A stretch of DNA of 48,702 nt. It comes from Nitrospinaceae bacterium. Its GTDB lineage: Bacteria > Nitrospinota > Nitrospinia > Nitrospinales > JACRGP01. This document shows, piece after piece, positions 3,850-48,702 of this stretch. The number at the start of each line of letters is the position of its first letter. Position 1 is the stretch's first letter. Under the pieces are notes generated by a model, which saw only the letters and a list, made by a program, of their open reading frames with translations, had not been told where the DNA came from and did not search any database. The position numbers and the translations under genes are program-made. The stretch lies in contig JAJDBD010000082.1 in assembly GCA_029261575.1 (NCBI GenBank), positions 1-48,702 of the forward strand, in the 5' to 3' direction.

Positions 3850-3850
3850 C

Positions 3851-3916
3851 CAGTGATGGTATTTGCCAGACAGTGGTCTCGATTGTGCGGGGATTTTAAA
3901 CGGTTTCTTTTAGAGG
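3851..3916 (+). repeat. Direct repeat, right copy
   Basis: This is the second copy of the ~65 bp repeat at 3533-3597, beginning CAGTGATGGTATTTGCC. It has lost the initiation codon context and ends just before the stop codon of the cyclase gene on the other strand. Confidence 0.6.
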
Positions 3917-3927
3917 TTCTTTAAAAA

Positions 3928-5862
3928 TCATTTATCCTTCATCTCGTGGATGCCGGTCCAGTGGGCGGGGGGATTTTCGATGTATTCCAAACAGCGTTGG
4001 CGCATGACTTCGCTGGGTGGGTCGTTAGGATGATCGTTTAAAATCCCGGTGAATTTGCGGCGGGCTTCTTCAAAGTCTCCTTCCCTATATTTTGACAAGG
4101 CTAAGGAATATTTTTTAATCAACGTTTCCTGGTCTTCCGCCTTTTTCGTTTCTTCCGTTAAGTCGTCTTTCAATCCCATCAGTTCGTAAATAGGGGAGCC
4201 TTCTTTCCTGCCTTTCACCTGGACCCAGTCCAGTTCCCGCGCGACGATTTGATCCTTTGCCAGGGATAAGGTGTTTTCGTCGATCAGAATTTTGGTGCCG
4301 TAAAATTTATTGAGACCTTCGAGACGCGAGCCGTAATTCACCCGGTCGCCCAGGCAGGTGTAGTCGCGCGCAGTTTCAGAGCCTATGTTTCCCACGATCA
4401 TTTCCCCCGTCGCCAGGCCAATGCGAGCGTGGACTTCGGGCAAGCCTTCCTCGACCCATTGGGCTCGCAAAAGCTCCAGCCGCTTTTGCATTTGCAGGGC
4501 CGTCTGGCAGGCCAGGATAGCGTGGTTTCCCTTGGTGAATGGCGGTCCCCAGAACGCCATGACGGCGTCGCCGATATACTTGTCCAGAATTCCCTCCCGG
4601 CTGGTCAGCTCTTCCGTCATCGCGCCCAGGTATTTGTTGAGCAGTTGAACCAACTCGTCCGGACTCATGGTTTCGCTGAAGCTCGTGAAGTTTGCTATGT
4701 CGGAGAACAGGACGGTTTGAACCTGCCGTGTTCCGCCGAGTTTCAATTTGTCGGGATTTTCGATGATTTCGGAAACGATTTTTGGGTTCAGGTACTTTCC
4801 GAATGATTCCCGGATATGTTCTTTTTCGCGCAGGCCCTCCATCATCTGATTGAAAGCGTTGGAGAGCTTCCCCACCTCGTCCCTGGATTTGCAAGCGATA
4901 CGAAAATCGTAATTTCCCAGCAGAACCTCGCGCGTTCCGGCGACCAGGTCGCGAAGCGGACGGACAATGCGATTGGCAAAGATCACGGCAAAGACCAGGC
5001 CGATGGCGAGAACGAGAAGTCCCATGGCGAGGATTTTCTTTTGCAAGGCCATGAAAGGCTCGAGCGCCGCGTCCAGATTGGAAGTCAAAAGATAACGCGC
5101 GCTTAAATTTCCTTCTTCAAACATCCCCTGGCGCGCCAGATGACGCTCTTCGGAAAAAAGAAAGACCCGGGTCTCTCCCTGGGTCGTGCCCATGTTCTCC
5201 AGCGCAATTTTTGATAGTCCTTCCGGCACGTTTCCCGCCACCTGATTATTTCCGCTGAACAAGGCGGCGTGGATCCTCGTGGTTTTCATCATAAGACCGA
5301 TGGTTGCGTTCAGCCAATTGTCGTCGATTCGCGTCAACACCCCCAAAACGCCGACGCCGTAATCGTCGGACAGGGATTCCTTGAGCGGGATGTAAACTAT
5401 GCTGAACAGTTCGTCTTGCAGGGGAAGGATGTGGGAGTATTCGACTCCTTGGTCGAGCGCGCGGGTCAGCGAGAAGGAGTTTTTATTTTTCTCAAACCAT
5501 TGGTGGGTTTTCTCGTCAGACGGATAAACGCCTCTTAGTTTGGAGGTTTCATCCACCATGAAAACGATTTCCCCTCCGGAATCCTGGGCGAGTTCCTCGG
5601 AGAAGGAATAAAAGTTGTCTTTAATTTGCTGGAGGAAGGAGCGAAATTTTTGGTCCAGGGAGATGGCGTGGACGAGATGCATGACCCTCTTTTGCTGGCT
5701 TTCCAGCGTGGCCTGAAATCGAATTTGGGCGACGCCCAGGTCTTTTGTGATGCGCTGGATTTCGTGGGATTCGGATTGCTGGTTGGTGAAATAGAGGGCG
5801 GAACCCAGCAGACCGGCGGTGAAGATAAAAAAGGCGAGGAATATTTTTGCGCCCAGGTTCAT
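3928..5862 (-). CDS. Membrane-bound class III adenylate cyclase with HAMP domain
   Basis: A 644-residue receptor-type cyclase that would convert ATP to cAMP at the inner membrane. In order it has a TM segment (about 6-26), a periplasmic sensor region (27-275, no recognised family by eye), a second TM (about 277-298), HAMP (about 299-352), a class III catalytic domain (about 380-560) and a short TPR-like tail (585-615). Both metal-binding aspartates are present (D388 in FSDIANF, D432 in YIGDAVMAFWG), as are K428 and T502/D506 in adenine-recognition positions and the transition-state pair N509/R513 (DRVNYGSR). It is therefore predicted active. It lies 100 bases downstream of the lipoprotein and cupredoxin genes on the same strand, suggesting that it reads a periplasmic signal related to them. 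Confidence 0.92.
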   Translation of the reverse strand: MNLGAKIFLAFFIFTAGLLGSALYFTNQQSESHEIQRITKDLGVAQIRFQATLESQQKRVMHLVHAISLDQKFRSFLQQIKDNFYSFSEELAQDSGGEIVFMVDETSKLRGVYPSDEKTHQWFEKNKNSFSLTRALDQGVEYSHILPLQDELFSIVYIPLKESLSDDYGVGVLGVLTRIDDNWLNATIGLMMKTTRIHAALFSGNNQVAGNVPEGLSKIALENMGTTQGETRVFLFSEERHLARQGMFEEGNLSARYLLTSNLDAALEPFMALQKKILAMGLLVLAIGLVFAVIFANRIVRPLRDLVAGTREVLLGNYDFRIACKSRDEVGKLSNAFNQMMEGLREKEHIRESFGKYLNPKIVSEIIENPDKLKLGGTRQVQTVLFSDIANFTSFSETMSPDELVQLLNKYLGAMTEELTSREGILDKYIGDAVMAFWGPPFTKGNHAILACQTALQMQKRLELLRAQWVEEGLPEVHARIGLATGEMIVGNIGSETARDYTCLGDRVNYGSRLEGLNKFYGTKILIDENTLSLAKDQIVARELDWVQVKGRKEGSPIYELMGLKDDLTEETKKAEDQETLIKKYSLALSKYREGDFEEARRKFTGILNDHPNDPPSEVMRQRCLEYIENPPAHWTGIHEMKDK

Positions 5863-5889
5863 GTTTTCAAGGGGATTTCAGATTATTGA

Positions 5890-5962
5890 ATGTTTTCGCT
5901 TTGGCAACTCGCGGCCTCTTATTTAAAGGGCCGCTCACAGCCGTGAAATTTTAGGGGCGCCT
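5890..5962 (+). repeat. Hairpin repeat shared with the 5S-23S rRNA spacer, copy 1
   Basis: The block TTGGCAACTCGCGG, then a palindromic GCGGCC...GGCCGC core and GCTCAC(A/G)GCC, recurs at 48169-48250 in the same orientation. It fills the 100-base gap between the lipoprotein stop and the cyclase start, so it lies in the cyclase 5' leader. Confidence 0.7.
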
Positions 5963-6682
5963 TTAATTATGGATGATGCGGTCGACGGAAAGCGTTTCAT
6001 CCAGCTTGACGCTTTCGCCCGGCGCCGCGGTCACTTCGTGGATGATCGATCCTAATCGCCAGTGCCAGAAAACGACTTGATAAGAGCCGGGATCGACGTT
6101 TTCAAAGGCGTAGGATTCTCCGCTGGAAAGACGCTTTCCGATGAGACCCTTTTTTGAAAACAGCGAGGCGGTCGGCGAATCGTCTTCGTCGGAGCCGAGT
6201 TCCAAAAGGCCTTCGAGCTTAACGGTCAACCGTCCTTCCTCGCCGGCGCCCATGGGGGGGAACGCCTGAAACCCTTCTCCCTCGTCGCTGATAAAAAAGT
6301 GACGCGTTTGAGAAGTGTTGTTGCGGATCAAAATAGAGTCGCCGGGCGCGAGGGCCAGGGAGCCGGGAGAGAAGCCTTCGGGTCCGACTTCCAGGATATG
6401 GAGGGTTTCCTCCTTATGTTCCGGGTCGATCAGGCAGGCGTACAATTCCGAAAGTTTATTGTAGTTGATCATGTTTTTCGTGTACTGAATGGCGCCGCTG
6501 AAAATGGAACCGCCGCCGTAACCTCCATTACCGTTGTCGTAGTTCTGGGATTTTTTAATGAAATCCTTATGGCTTTGCGCCTTGAGCGTTCCATAAATGG
6601 ACGCTTTCCCCGGCGCGGTTTCCGGAGCGGAGGCGCAGGCGGCGCTAACGATTAACAAGCCGATAATAATTAATTTTTTCAT
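5963..6682 (-). CDS. Putative lipoprotein, cupredoxin/carboxypeptidase-regulatory-like
   Basis: A 239-residue secreted protein. Residues 1-15 form a lipoprotein-type signal peptide ending SAAC, with C16 as the likely lipidated cysteine; the lipobox is not perfect. The middle contains PGDSILIRNNTSQTRHFFI, which resembles the blue-copper-like fold of the neighbour. The later part (YAFENVDPGSYQVVFWHWR) resembles an Ig-like regulatory strand block. A full set of copper ligands is not visible. It starts four bases after the stop of the cupredoxin gene (6687), so the two are one operon, followed by the cyclase. Likely periplasmic, membrane-anchored; function unknown. Confidence 0.7.
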   Translation of the reverse strand: MKKLIIIGLLIVSAACASAPETAPGKASIYGTLKAQSHKDFIKKSQNYDNGNGGYGGGSIFSGAIQYTKNMINYNKLSELYACLIDPEHKEETLHILEVGPEGFSPGSLALAPGDSILIRNNTSQTRHFFISDEGEGFQAFPPMGAGEEGRLTVKLEGLLELGSDEDDSPTASLFSKKGLIGKRLSSGESYAFENVDPGSYQVVFWHWRLGSIIHEVTAAPGESVKLDETLSVDRIIHN

Positions 6683-6686
6683 GGGA

Positions 6687-7301
6687 CTATTTCTTCACGA
6701 TTTCCAGGATGATTTCCCCGTTGTCCCCGTTTTTGATAATGACGGGACGGGGTTTGTAACGGCGATGGAACACCAGGGCGGTCAATTCCCATTCGCCTTT
6801 TGGAATGCCCTCGAGAGTAAACGCCCCCGGTTTTTCCAAAATAGCGAAGTAGGGAGAGGGAAGCACGACCAGTTTCCCTTCCATTCTTTTATGGACGGAG
6901 CAATAAAAATTTACCCGGCCTGGGCGCGTGAAACTTTTTTTTAAAACGGAGCCTTTCTCGCCCAAACCCAGATCAAAGGTGGAAGCTTTGCTCAGCGAGT
7001 ACACATTGTGATCTATTTCGCGGCTTTCATCGTTCAAAAACCGGACGTTGTCGCCCTGGTAGGCCACGATAAGATCGGGATTGAACTTTCGTCCCTTTTG
7101 ACTCACGTCGTGGGTTTTGTTGGAAGCCTTGATTTGACCGGGGCGTTTGGGGATTAAATATACGATCAGGTTTTTTAAAACCTTGCCCCCTTCCACCCGG
7201 ACGTTGCCGTTCAGGCTATGGGCTAAAGCGGGTGAGGCCTGGAGGATCCAAAAAGCCGAAAAAAAGAGAGCGGCCTTTGATTTTGCCGAGCGCGACGTCA
7301 T
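6687..7301 (-). CDS. Periplasmic cupredoxin (plastocyanin-like) protein
   Basis: A 204-residue exported protein. From the chosen ATG (7299-7301) a signal peptide covers residues 1-27 with an ASPALA|HS cleavage site. A frame extension to 7367 would put 22 polar residues before it, and neither start has a clear ribosome binding site. Type 1 copper ligands are visible: H98 (IDHNVYS), C134 and H137 (NFYCSVHKRM) and M140. The C-terminal third (about 150-200) is a second beta-rich block (FTLEGIPKGEWELTAL). The family is often annotated as methylamine-utilisation (MauL-like) protein, without proof of that role. It is the first gene of a lipoprotein-cyclase operon and may deliver or sense copper or electrons. 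Confidence 0.82.
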   Translation of the reverse strand: MTSRSAKSKAALFFSAFWILQASPALAHSLNGNVRVEGGKVLKNLIVYLIPKRPGQIKASNKTHDVSQKGRKFNPDLIVAYQGDNVRFLNDESREIDHNVYSLSKASTFDLGLGEKGSVLKKSFTRPGRVNFYCSVHKRMEGKLVVLPSPYFAILEKPGAFTLEGIPKGEWELTALVFHRRYKPRPVIIKNGDNGEIILEIVKK

Positions 7302-7455
7302 ACGAATCCAGTTGAATGGAAGAGTCCTGGGGATGAAAAAAGTTCGACCTGCATCCCAGCCACCCAATATACCGAAAATGCCTGGCGGGTTGAAGGTAAA
7401 TAAATCGCGGACTTGGAATGCCGGTTAAAACTTTTGAGGGACGTTGGTTTTCAAA

Positions 7456-7492
7456 CAAAAAAAGCGCCCAACTTTAAAGTTGAACGCTTTTT
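7456..7492 (-). terminator. Intrinsic terminator downstream of tsaB/ydcH-type genes
   Basis: The stem CAACTTTAAAGTTG is extended by GCG/CGC pairs and flanked by A-rich and T-rich arms. On the minus strand it reads hairpin then TTTTTTT, ending the transcript that comes from 8566-7637. It may also work in the other direction. Confidence 0.7.
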
Positions 7493-7493
7493 A

Positions 7494-7599
7494 CCAGCGT
7501 ACCGCTGGACCTAGTGGGCTTAGCTTATACGGTGAGCGCTACAAGCTACATTGGGTTTGCAAATCAATATTGCCCCGGCTCTGGCCACGCCGCCTCGCC
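7494..7599 (-). repeat. Dispersed ~110 bp repeat, copy A
   Basis: In reverse complement it contains GCAATATTGATTTGCAAA, then CACCGTATAAG, and ends in the palindrome CCAGCG..CGCTGG. The same order is found at 14734-14851 (same orientation) and at 9236-9480 (opposite orientation). It lies directly behind the terminator at 7456. Confidence 0.75.
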
Positions 7600-7636
7600 G
7601 AACAATATCTGAACCGGACAGGAGACCCGTTAGGTT

Positions 7637-7864
7637 TTAATGCAAGGTTTTTTCATGTTCGTTGATGATTTGAGCCATCCTGTCTTTTCCTTTTAGCTTT
7701 TGTTTCTGTATCTTTTTCTTTTCCAATTCCTGTTCTGGGCTTAAAAACGACATTTTGTTTAAATCCTCGACCCGCGATTTCAGGGAGAGGTGTTGGTTAT
7801 GCAATTCTTGAAACTCCGGGTTTTCGCTGTTTAGTTTTTGAAGAAGTTCCGGATCAATTTCCAT
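7637..7864 (-). CDS. YdcH/DUF465 family small coiled-coil protein
   Basis: A 75-residue, almost entirely helical, charged protein with the DUF465 pattern: an N-terminal NPEFQELHNQHLSLKSRVEDL block, a central L(S)PEQ(E)LEKKKIQKQKLKGKD and a short tail. Members are small cytosolic proteins of unknown function. The ribosome binding site AGGAGG (7873-7878) is placed eight bases before the ATG and overlaps the stop codon of tsaB (TAG, 7877-7879), so the two genes are transcribed together. The transcript ends at the hairpin at 7456-7492. Confidence 0.8.
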   Translation of the reverse strand: MEIDPELLQKLNSENPEFQELHNQHLSLKSRVEDLNKMSFLSPEQELEKKKIQKQKLKGKDRMAQIINEHEKTLH

Positions 7865-27196: not shown

Positions 27197-29659
27197 ATGG
27201 AACAGACGCTTTTCAACAATCCCTCCGATAAAATCGTTTTCCCCGTCAAGGGAATGTCCTGCGCCAGTTGCGCGTCGCGGATAGAAAAAAAACTTGGATC
27301 ATTGGAAGGCGTTCGCCTGGCGGAGGTCAACTTCGGCGCGGGGCAGGCGACGGTGGAATACGATCCCAACAGCGTGACTCCGGATAAATTTGTGAAAGTT
27401 ATCGAAAACCTCGGATTCGAGGCGCCCGGGAAAAAGCAGACTTTTTCGGTGGAAGGGATGACTTGCGCTTCCTGCGTTTCCAGAGTGGAAAAAAAGCTAG
27501 GGAGTCTGGCCGGAGTTAAAAATGCCGTTGTGAATTTGTCCGCCGAAAAAGTTTCGGTAGAATTTTTTCCCGGTCAAACCGGGCCGGAGGAATTTGAGAG
27601 CGCCTTACGAAATATCGGCTACACCCTGCGAATTATGGCAGAGGCGGGCGAAGACGAAGTGCGGGAATCCCAACTCCGCGAATCGCAAGCCCTCAAACTA
27701 AAATTCATCGTTTCCGCCTGCGCCGGCGCCTTGATCATGGCCGGGGGGATGTTTTGGGGATTTTCGCATCTTTTATTATTTCTACTGGCCACGCCCGTGC
27801 AGTTTTGGGCGGGGCGACAATTTTACCAGGGCGCCTGGTCGGGCGTTCGACACGGGTATACAGACATGAATACCCTGGTGGCGGTTGGGACTTCCGCCGC
27901 TTATTTTTACAGCGCTTTCGTTGCCTTATTCCCAGGGGCAATCTCGGCGACCGGGCAAGCGGCGGACGTCTATTTCGATACCTCCGTCATGATCATTGCG
28001 CTGGTGTTGATGGGGCGCTGGCTGGAAGCGGGAGCCAAACAAAAAGTTTCGGACGCTATAAAAAGCCTGGTCAATTTAAAACCCAAAACTGCGCAGGTGG
28101 AACGCGACGGACTTGAAATTAAAATCTCCGTCGACGAGGTTCATAAAGGAGACATCGTGATCGTTCGTTCGGGAGAAAAAATTCCCGTCGACGGAACGAT
28201 CCTGAACGGCAACGGCTCTGTGGACGAGTCCATGGTGACTGGTGAAAGCCTTCCGGTGGAAAAGAAACCGGGAGACAGAGTGATCGGCGCGAGCATCAAC
28301 CAATCGGGATATTTTAAAATGCGCGCCGAACGTCTCGGGAGCGAATCCGTATTGTCCCAAATCATCCAACTGGTTCAGGAGGCCCAGGGTTCCAAAGCCC
28401 CGGTGCAAAGATTGGCGGACAAGGTGGCCGGGATATTCGTCCCCGCCGTCATGGGCGTGGCGGTTTTGACATTTTTAATCTGGTGGGGCTGGGGCGCGAC
28501 GTTGGCCGGTATAGAAAACCCGTTTTTATTTGCGTTGATGGCCTTTATTTCCGTTTTAATCATCGCCTGTCCCTGCGCTCTGGGACTGGCCACTCCCACG
28601 GCGATCATGGTTGGGACGGGGAGGGGAGCGCAGTTGGGAATTCTCATCAAGGGCGGAGCCGTTCTGGAACAGGCGCAAAATATTGATACCGTGGTTTTCG
28701 ATAAGACGGGCACGTTGACCCAGGGCAAGCCCCAGGTGACGGATGTTTTTTGCTCGCCAGAAACGGCATTGTCCGCCGATACGGTTTTGCGGTTGGCCGC
28801 TTCCCTGGAAAAAGGATCGGAACATCCTTTGGCGCAAGCCGTCGTCCGGGAGGCGGAGGAACGGGGTTTGGAGCTGGCTCCGGTCGACGATTTTCAAAAC
28901 CAGCCGGGATTTGGCGTGAAGGGGCGCGTGGAGGGAATGGATCTGGCTCTGGGAAACTTGAGCTTGACGCCGGACCCCACCGGCGAGGTTTCGGTTTTGC
29001 AATATCGAATGGAAGAATGGTCGCGTAAGGGGAAAACGCCCATGTGCCTGTGGGTGGACGGAAAACCCGCGGGCGCCCTGGCCGCCGCGGACGCCTTGCG
29101 TCCAGAGGCTGTTTCAGCCGTCCAACGTTTGCGTCAAGCAGGCATGGAAGTGGTCATGATGACCGGCGACCGCTTGGAAACCGCGCGCGCTATTGCGGAT
29201 GAAATCGGGGTCGAAAAAGTTTTCGCCGAAGTCTTGCCGGGCGATAAAGCCGGCGAGGTAAAAAAAATGATGGACCAGGGACATTTTGTCGCGATGGTCG
29301 GCGACGGCGTCAACGACGCTCCGGCCCTGGCGCAGGCGCAGATTGGAATTGCCGTTGGGTCCGGAACGGACGTCGCCATGGAGGCTTCGGACATTACTCT
29401 GATGACCCACGATTTGCACTCCGTGGCGGACGCCATTGAACTGAGCCGGCAGACCATGCGCAAGATTCGCCAGAACCTTTTTTGGGCGTTTTTTTATAAC
29501 ACATTGGGAATCCCCATCGCCGCCGGAGTTTTGTACCCCGCTTTTGGGATTTTGCTCAAGCCCTTGTTCGCCGCCGCCGCGATGTCTTTAAGCTCGGTTT
29601 CCGTGGTCGGCAATTCCCTTTTGCTCAAGCGGTTTGAGCCTTCGAGACGCAGGCCCTAA
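27197..29659 (+). CDS. copA: Copper-translocating P1B-type ATPase CopA
   Basis: An 820-residue Cu(I) export ATPase. Two N-terminal heavy-metal-associated domains carry GMSCASC (C22/C25) and GMTCASC (C90/C93). The transmembrane core has eight expected helices, including the metal site CPC (458-460 in [13 protein letters not shown]). The actuator contains TGES (348-351), the phosphorylation site is D502 in [11 protein letters not shown], and the hinge is [13 protein letters not shown]. The ATG at 27197 has only a weak GAGG. It exports copper from the cytoplasm, in a window that also encodes a cupredoxin and an adenylate cyclase. The last codon overlaps apbE (see 29656). Confidence 0.96.
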
Positions 29660-48024: not shown

Positions 48025-48141
<117 letters not shown>

Positions 48142-48168
48142 AATTTTTGATGGGGCCTCTAAAATCGG

Positions 48169-48250
48169 ATATTTCCGCTTTTGGCAACTCGCGGACCCTT
48201 ATTTCATAAGGGCCGCTCACGGCCATGATTAATTCTTAGAGGAACCCTTT
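48169..48250 (+). repeat. Hairpin repeat in the 5S-23S spacer, copy 2
   Basis: TTGGCAACTCGCGG, an inverted pair ACCCTTA...TAAGGG within GCGG..CCGC, then GCTCACGGCC. It is the second copy of 5890-5962. It occupies the middle of the spacer between 23S and 5S (48142-48329), a place where RNase processing occurs. Confidence 0.75.
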
Positions 48251-48329
48251 ATTTTTTGAACAATTGAATATCGTTTGAAAGTAACCGAGTTGGCGATCCG
48301 GGTAAACCCGGACCGCCGGGAAATTATAA

Positions 48330-48702
48330 AAGGTCAAGCCTCACGACTTATTAGTACTGGTTAGCTAAACACATTACTGCGCTTACACATCCAGCCTATC
48401 AACCTCATAGTCTATAAGGAGTCTTTAGTCTTCCCGAAGGAAGAAGAGATATCTTGTTTTGGAGTTGGCTTCCCGCTTAGATGCATTCAGCGGTTATCCG
48501 TTCCGAACGTAGCTACCGGGCAATGCAATTGGCGTCACAACCCGAACACTAGAGGTTCGTCCACTCCGGTCCTCTCGTACTAGGAGCAGCTCTCCTCAGA
48601 TATCTCACACCCACGACGGATAGGGACCAAACTGTCTCACGACGTTTTAAACCCAGCTCGCGTACCGCTTTAATGGGCGAACAGACCAACCCTTGGGACC
48701 TG
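48330..48702 (-). rRNA. rrl: 23S ribosomal RNA, 3' end (truncated by window)
   Basis: The minus strand carries the highly conserved 3' part of 23S rRNA. It includes the sarcin-ricin loop (AGTACGAGAGGACCGGAGTG at about 48563-48582) and AACCGCTGAATGCATCTAAG. The 3' end is near GGCTTGACCTT at 48330. The gene continues beyond 48702. With 5S it forms the distal part of an rRNA operon. Confidence 0.97.

Follow-up and report, generated by a model that had tools for sequence, protein, structure and literature searches.

The present analysis concerns a stretch of 48,702 nucleotides (nt) from a Nitrospinaceae bacterium of the phylum Nitrospinota (contig JAJDBD010000082.1 of assembly GCA_029261575.1), hereafter the window, and within it three consecutive open reading frames (ORFs) on the minus strand at positions 3928-7301, as read from the ORF list and its translations. 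They encode a predicted cupredoxin (P0001), a putative lipoprotein (P0002) and a predicted receptor-type adenylate cyclase (P0003). An initial annotation had described this arrangement, with cupredoxin and lipoprotein genes four bases apart and followed by the receptor cyclase, and had proposed that copper or redox state outside the membrane controls cyclic AMP (cAMP) inside; all three ORFs lie where it placed them. Here, I report that the three genes form a conserved unit and that related cupredoxins accompany related periplasmic sensors in other bacteria. The features of the locus, in window coordinates, are the following.

6687-7301, minus strand: cupredoxin gene P0001, 204 amino acids (aa), first gene of the operon, with a signal peptide recognised by eye.
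6864-7136, minus strand: cupredoxin domain of P0001, residues 56-146, from a Cupredoxin_1 match and aligned ligands.
7008-7010, 6900-6902, 6891-6893 and 6882-6884, minus strand: predicted type-1 copper ligands H98, C134, H137 and M140 of P0001, respectively.
6714-6851, minus strand: candidate C-terminal beta-sandwich of P0001, residues 151-196, from a weak match to the EMC7 beta-sandwich.
5963-6682, minus strand: lipoprotein gene P0002, 239 aa, with a putative lipidated Cys16.
6152-6412, minus strand: predicted ligand-less cupredoxin-fold domain of P0002, residues 91-177, from an AlphaFold2 model, Foldseek and VIA-align.
5863-5962, no strand assigned: dispersed genomic repeat between P0002 and P0003, with 26 matching places in the genome including its own.
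3928-5862, minus strand: predicted receptor adenylate cyclase gene P0003, 644 aa, from Pfam matches and catalytic residues.
5038-5862, minus strand: first transmembrane helix and predicted periplasmic double-CACHE (dCache_3/CHASE4-like) sensor of P0003, residues 1-275, from secondary structure and hhalign.
4825-4980, minus strand: HAMP domain of P0003, residues 295-346 (Pfam, E 2.5e-13).
4201-4716, minus strand: class III cyclase catalytic domain of P0003, residues 383-554, with D388/D432, K428/T502 and N509/R513 (PF00211, aligned residues).
7459-7492, minus strand: terminator-like hairpin of 15 pairs, upstream of P0001, between the operon and the preceding gene.

The stop codon of P0001 is followed after 4 nt by P0002, and that of P0002 after 100 nt by P0003. 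The hairpin is only suggestive as a terminator ahead of the operon, because terminator-like hairpins are not in excess (7 found against 6.7 in shuffles).

P0001 matches Cupredoxin_1 with an E value of 3.7e-5 and 24.1 bits, under the Pfam cut-off of 27, and a profile of its 12 operon orthologues (alignment A1) matches plastocyanin (E 1.3e-4) and amicyanin (E 9e-4) among PDB structures. The complete set of copper ligands listed by the initial annotation is correctly positioned, all four residues being invariant in the 12 rows of A1, in the 14 cupredoxins of the three-gene loci described below (hereafter triads; 14/14) and in all 89 aligned family members. By this ligand set P0001 is a type-1 copper protein, for which copper binding is predicted; its C-x2-H-x2-M spacing is that of amicyanin. 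Type-1 copper sites are built for electron transfer. The C-terminal beta-sandwich match is weak, with E 0.13 for the single sequence and E 0.0036 with the A1 profile.

P0003 matches PF00211 with E 3e-21 (76.3 bits against a cut-off of 21.9), and its HAMP domain likewise exceeds the cut-off. D388, D432, N509, R513, K428 and T502 are invariant in the 12 rows of P0003 orthologues; the first two are the metal pair and N509/R513 the transition-state residues, while K428/T502 align with the Lys/Thr of CyaB, where the guanylyl cyclase Cya2 has Glu/Gly instead. The model of the catalytic domain aligns with CyaB (3r5g) and Cya2 at Z 23.1 and with CyaC (1wc1) at Z 20.5; CyaB and CyaC thus have the same catalytic fold as P0003 and other input domains. 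Judging from these residues, P0003 is a class III cyclase of the adenylate type, predicted to produce cAMP. The genome (87% complete) holds four PF00211 matches, P0003 among them, and since 12 cNMP-binding matches are also present, receptors for cAMP may be available in this organism.

Between the first transmembrane helix and the HAMP domain, P0003 has a periplasmic part of about 240 residues, which the initial annotation had called unclassified. In this part of the window's own protein indeed no Pfam family reaches its cut-off; among the sensors of the orthologues, CHASE4 is matched in 8 of 12 (best E 1.7e-4) and dCache_3 in one of 12 (E 0.037). An alignment of the Nitrospinota sensors (A4) matches a second alignment, of 15 Pseudomonadota sensors paired with cupredoxins (A6), over the whole sensor length (hhalign 98.8%, E 7.5e-17, columns 1-278), which places the Nitrospinota domain, at profile level, among the homologues of dCache_3 receptor sensors. 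The double-CACHE assignment rests on predicted secondary structure, on the Pfam matches of the relatives and on hhalign; neither the A4 nor the A6 profile found a credible sequence relative among PDB structures, and catalytic-domain matches took up the structural comparison made with the complete cyclase model. No column of the Nitrospinota sensor holds His or Cys in at least 10 of the 12 rows, so that a metal or redox signal would need to come from a partner.

P0002 had no family match in the Pfam scan. Its AlphaFold2 model has a mean predicted local distance difference test score (pLDDT) of 79.9, with all but one of the 15 ten-residue blocks between residues 81 and 230 scoring at least 89, and Foldseek matches it to EfeO and to a Cupredoxin_1 protein. 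In VIA-align comparisons, residues ~91-177 align with the EfeO cupredoxin domain (Z 12.9, 87 aligned residues, root-mean-square deviation 2.1 A) and with the Cupredoxin_1 protein 4hcf (Z 11.7, 82 aligned, deviation 1.7), and beyond this domain there are further strands in a layout resembling P0001. The positions equivalent to the copper ligands were set by a sequence anchoring, not a superposition, of G83-D84-N90/G128 of P0001 to G114-D115-N121/G158 of P0002, that is, of the common G-D-x5-N and the glycine six residues ahead of the Cys ligand. They are occupied by F129, S164, D167 and P170, and no His or Cys stands at these columns in the 12 rows of P0002 orthologues (A2), which hold F/L, S/T/A, D/N and L/P/I/M. 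According to the model, then, P0002 is a ligand-less cupredoxin-fold protein; the initial description of a lipoprotein stands as to the gene and the putative lipid-bearing cysteine, and is corrected to a second cupredoxin fold as to the protein. P0001 and P0002 as direct sequence relatives were rejected (15.6% probability in a direct profile comparison), and the common fold alone is kept. The putative lipobox residue Cys16 is present in 11 of the 12 A2 rows. Lipidation seems not to be universal in the family, because no lipobox-type Cys was seen in the lipoprotein of three triads from an alphaproteobacterial class. Despite the lost copper-ligand positions, H38 is invariant and H95 nearly so in the A2 rows, and a different ligand site is possible.

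The conservation of the operon was surveyed in 77 Nitrospinota genomes of 24 genera, 61 of which were covered by the cupredoxin search. Full-length lipoprotein orthologues (at least 338 bits) occur in 12 of the 77; the sensor profile finds the identical 12 genomes, from 6 of the 24 genera, and none besides; and cupredoxin orthologues (at least 195 bits) occur in 11 of the 61 searched, all within those 12. Thirteen other matches of the lipoprotein profile are weak (at most 28 bits) and partial, 11 of them in other Nitrospinota genomes. Lipoprotein and cyclase genes adjoin in all 12 genomes, and the cupredoxin stands in front in 11 of them. The remaining locus, in G051, is cut by a contig end 24 nt upstream of the lipoprotein gene, at the point where the cupredoxin is expected. 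No orthologous cyclase without both partners was found among the 77 genomes. The comparison with 11 relatives, L008 and 10 from Nitrospinota, shows one gene order and strand throughout; in 7 of them the genes overlap by 4 nt and then by 4 or 11 nt. The flanking genes, identified by eye, vary, with a tsaB-like gene before the operon in four loci, the window's among them, and ccsA-hemA-hemC-like genes in six. The sensor also occurs in 3 of 385 genomes of the alphaproteobacterial class of genome G077, and all three hold the triad with the full ligand set. The neighbourhood survey suggested by the initial annotation thus finds the triad conserved together in 11 Nitrospinota genomes (lipoprotein and cyclase in 12/77) and three alphaproteobacterial-class genomes, against the eventuality it had named of neighbours not kept together elsewhere, and confirms the operon as a real conserved unit, beyond chance. 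In two loci (L085:5617-6423 and L086:5284-6090) a convergent gene for a 268-aa membrane-type protein lies directly downstream of the triad.

Two further points raised by the initial annotation concern the surroundings of the operon. One is a possible promoter at 5890-5962, separating the cyclase from the other two genes. These positions are part of the segment 5863-5962, which recurs, in places only partially, at 25 further genomic sites with 73-84% identity; no inverted repeat was found within it, and in a genome of the same genus the gap between P0002 and P0003 is 20 nt as against 100 nt in the window. Promoter-like sites in 3850-7700 number two, against a shuffle mean of 2.2, one of them (5870-5843) at the start of the cyclase gene. 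Most simply, the repeat is a lineage-specific insertion of a dispersed element, uninformative on the ancestral operon, and a promoter within it that splits off the cyclase was rejected in view of its dispersed nature, the 20-nt gap and the lack of a promoter excess. The repeat family extends to about 100 nt, and a second window copy (48169-48242) lies between the genes of 5S and 23S rRNA; the 5S gene and the 3' end of the 23S gene occupy the window end, 48025-48702. The other point is copA. A CopA-like P-type ATPase ORF does start at 27197 (by eye), some 20 kb away as noted; that distance is unremarkable, and the protein has no tblastn match (E 1e-5) in 14 stretches of 3.6-19 kb around the operon in other genomes. 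The copA argument therefore carries no weight, and copA was dropped as a functional neighbour.

Relatives of the pair are found outside the triads. A plasmid search with the cupredoxin matched 48 records, five of which were opened (three of nine from Caballeronia and two rhizobial). In the three Caballeronia plasmids a cupredoxin annotated as 'methylamine utilization protein' (at best 33.5% identity and E 2e-13) lies 1, 1 and 10 nt upstream of an EAL-annotated gene, and the one receptor scanned comprises dCache_3, HAMP, GGDEF and EAL. Neither rhizobial record has a receptor near the cupredoxin, SCO and cytochrome genes being there instead, and the plasmid search with the sensor gave no match. 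With a Caballeronia cupredoxin as query, 61 of 398 Pseudomonadota genomes matched, at 71 places; the best 60 minus the G077 triad, i.e. 59 places, were fetched, leaving out the 11 weakest rows (all E >1e-13).

A downstream ORF of more than 250 aa was picked by rule at 47 of the 59 places, and Pfam assigns to these ORFs GGDEF and EAL (35), dCache_3 (34), HAMP (33), class III cyclase (2) and protein kinase (1). Motif searches add seven loci with a receptor ORF missed by this rule, and the outputs over the 59 places are GGDEF-EAL at 42, class III cyclase at two, protein kinase at one and other at 14. A related sensor follows the cupredoxin within 400 nt at 45 of the 59. As a control, the motif rule tags 36/59 downstream versus 5/59 upstream neighbours. 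The protein kinase case, L147:332-3025, is a Ser/Thr kinase receptor (dCache_3 and HAMP) directly after the cupredoxin, whose sensor matches dCache_3 with E 5.5e-6 and A6 with E 7.2e-13. Counted among the 14 'other' places are L148, where a histidine kinase is the second gene downstream and its sensor matches the receptor profile at 98.6%, L149, with a histidine kinase 373 nt downstream (97.1%), and L170, at a contig end; the remainder is followed by porin-like, DUF3034, band-7, cytochrome or further genes. Given the A4-A6 homology and the homologous cupredoxins, Nitrospinota and Pseudomonadota have in common a related cupredoxin as well as a related sensor; what differs is the output domain in the cytoplasm. 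DUF3034 proteins are encoded beside the pair at many Pseudomonadota loci (L088, L089 and L092 among them), and a truncated globin in three Caballeronia records. DUF3034 occurs in 38 of the 398 genomes, 37 of which also have the cupredoxin, and at least 33 of the 38 main DUF3034 places have a sensor or cupredoxin match no more than 4 kb away; it may take the place of the third partner in Pseudomonadota.

The two members also occur together at the level of genomes. Searching the same draw of 398 Pseudomonadota genomes with A6 (E 1e-10 or better) gave 58 sensor places in 51 genomes, with a cupredoxin no more than 400 nt upstream at 45 places. Both partners are present in 49 genomes, the cupredoxin alone in 12, the sensor alone in two and neither in 335 (Fisher 1e-48, uncorrected for phylogeny). 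In five genomes (G473, G569, G582, G597 and G798) cupredoxin and sensor are both present with no linked pair, a pattern hard to explain by operon transfer alone. The distances among 44 cupredoxins correlate with those among their sensors (r 0.79, with none of 2000 shuffles as high), a value that shared ancestry alone could also yield.

In a tree of 89 cupredoxins, built by a quick method with Shimodaira-Hasegawa-like approximate likelihood-ratio (SH-aLRT) support, the 14 triad cupredoxins form one clade (98), the receptor-linked cupredoxins of Pseudomonadota a large group together with ten 'other' rows (95), and the cytochrome-linked cupredoxins a separate branch (100), while kinase-linked, histidine-kinase-near and TPR-fused cupredoxins fall loosely with the triad (83). 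The Pseudomonadota cyclase cases L159 and L169 lie among the GGDEF-EAL cupredoxins, apart from the triad clade, which suggests more than one origin for the cupredoxin-cyclase pairing. The TPR-fused proteins, from six Nitrospinota loci (L020, L021, L022, L023, L025 and L029), combine TPR-like repeats, recognised by eye, with a C-terminal cupredoxin domain in ~660-700 aa, a cysS-like gene adjoining in five of the six. At L074, L075, L076, L078 and L079, from five Nitrospinota genomes, one or two cupredoxin-type proteins precede a cytochrome-c-like protein of ~640-665 aa (by eye).

Synteny, unlinked co-occurrence and exchange of output domains together strongly indicate a partnership of cupredoxin and sensor. 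The cupredoxin is most likely its input subunit, because cupredoxin and periplasmic sensor stay constant while the output enzyme changes, and it probably reads a condition outside the cell. That the three window genes make up one receptor system, with the cupredoxin as input subunit of a double-CACHE cyclase, is judged somewhat more probable than its negation. In such a system the exported P0001, with its type-1 copper site, would be the input subunit, and its metal or, more likely, redox state would set its docking on the double-CACHE domain of P0003; P0002, tethered to the membrane, might serve as a fixed scaffold or as a competitor and may keep the complex at the membrane; a conformational change would pass through the HAMP domain and alter, in either direction, the rate of cAMP synthesis. 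Redox state is tentatively favoured over copper supply as the signal, because of the electron-transfer design of the type-1 site. The proposal of the initial annotation is accordingly right in outline, in that the conserved unit and the cupredoxin/sensor partnership are borne out, and unproven as to the signal, the contact and the direction of the cAMP response being likewise conjectural. A broader claim, to which I would give an even chance, is that the blue-copper proteins of this branch are general periplasmic co-receptors, one cupredoxin/double-CACHE unit reading periplasmic electron pressure or copper and feeding cAMP, cyclic di-GMP (c-di-GMP), Ser/Thr kinase and probably histidine kinase outputs, in Nitrospinota and in about one eighth of the Pseudomonadota sampled (49/398).

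Several observations weigh against this interpretation. The A6 profile derives from receptors that are themselves paired, and the phylogenetic caveat given above applies to the co-occurrence counts. Two genomes with the sensor (G355 and G581) have no detectable cupredoxin, and 12 genomes with the cupredoxin have no A6 match, six of them with a cupredoxin at E 1e-10 or better and six with weaker cupredoxin matches only; of the six strong ones, one is the triad-holding G077, one a contig end and one has a histidine kinase nearby. Of 80 control genomes taken from outside the cupredoxin list (picked by number, membership in the 398 being unconfirmed for each), 41 contain dCache_3, so that the fold as such is independent of the cupredoxin and the link is limited to this sensor subfamily. 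The TPR-cupredoxins group with the triad, yet no receptor stands beside them in the loci seen; they and the cytochrome-c-adjacent cupredoxins keep the same ligands, which means that ligand conservation alone does not imply sensing. Finally, A4 matches the single-sequence sensor of the kinase receptor with a probability of 1.6%, and the profile comparison of P0001 with P0002 is weak.

Four other explanations were considered. The signal might be copper itself, the cupredoxin acting as a copper buffer or chaperone that docks on the sensor differently with and without its metal, or that passes copper on to it, so that cAMP would follow copper supply. The conserved ligand set fits this, as does the 1:1 copper binding of the CHASE4 domain of Pseudomonas aeruginosa PA14_37690 described in PMC13277305; I nonetheless hold it to be rather unlikely, as the Nitrospinota sensor lacks a conserved His or Cys column, CopA is without a match around the operon elsewhere, and a His with C-x2-H-x2-M is the set of electron-transfer cupredoxins such as amicyanin, which the profile also matches. 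The cupredoxin could instead be an ordinary respiratory electron carrier, co-transcribed for convenience with a cyclase responsive to the same growth condition. Within the phylum, paralogous cupredoxins do adjoin cytochrome c genes, and the two rhizobial homologues adjoin SCO and cytochrome genes, but in the quick tree the cytochrome-linked proteins stand apart with an SH-aLRT support of 100%, those linked to receptors have partners with the periplasmic sensor in common, and co-occurrence holds when the genes are unlinked; this account is considered unlikely.

The lipoprotein, rather than the cupredoxin, may be the main ligand-binding partner of the sensor, the cupredoxin protecting or maturing it, as the overlap of lipoprotein and cyclase genes by 4 or 11 nt in 7/11 relatives and the conservation of H38 and H95 could suggest. 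However, P0002 lacks the copper ligands, and at 45/59 Pseudomonadota places the cupredoxin gene directly adjoins that of the receptor without an intervening lipoprotein gene (the rest of these genomes was not searched), which makes this role quite improbable. Lastly, the genes may merely travel together as an operon block without functional dependence. The three alphaproteobacterial-class triads do suggest block transfer, yet flanking genes differ while the three genes stay the same, output domains are exchanged and five genomes hold both partners unlinked, and I regard the idea as highly implausible.

A soluble periplasmic protein encoded beside a membrane receptor and relaying a signal to it is known from LuxP/LuxQ and YfiR/YfiN. 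Their soluble partners are not known to be copper proteins, whereas here the partner is a predicted type-1 copper protein, joined in the triad by a putative lipoprotein of ligand-less cupredoxin fold. The pair is an already known receptor design, that of a periplasmic partner, with a blue-copper protein as the new partner. The 'methylamine utilization protein' cupredoxins (e.g. on Caballeronia plasmid NZ_CP084253.1), here known from annotation alone, share a homologous cupredoxin (33% identity) and a homologous double-CACHE sensor, and differ in their GGDEF-EAL output and in having DUF3034 and a truncated globin in the lipoprotein's stead.

Among the papers listed, PMC13277305 comes nearest; it describes P. 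aeruginosa CHASE4 receptors (PA14_37690, PA14_53310, PA2072/IsmP and PA0847) which, like P0003, place a periplasmic CACHE-clan sensor with metal-related ligands on a membrane second-messenger protein, but in which the sensor domain itself binds the ligand, heme or copper, with ferric iron reported earlier; they are GGDEF-EAL proteins and include no cAMP cyclase. The words cupredoxin, operon and neighbor are absent from the main text of that paper, and the word copper from the main text of a review of c-di-GMP stimuli (PMC8846402). A Cache survey (PMC4822843) lists 883 dCache_3 proteins, four of them in the adenylate/guanylate cyclase column. PdeB of Shewanella is not claimed as a studied relative, the passages found on it mentioning neither CACHE nor methylamine and describing an extra PAS domain. 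Among the matches listed in the open-access literature, subscription papers lying outside, no description was found of a receptor with cyclase, GGDEF or EAL output that has a cupredoxin as its partner.

Most periplasmic sensors of second-messenger enzymes are without a known signal. If the interpretation favoured here is true, a subfamily of double-CACHE receptors would gain a testable stimulus in the periplasm, namely its redox or copper state, and a role in signalling would fall to the cupredoxins that carry the annotation 'methylamine utilization protein'. Cytoplasmic cAMP and c-di-GMP would then be linked to respiratory-chain state on the outer side of the inner membrane, by a route not found described among the open-access matches listed.

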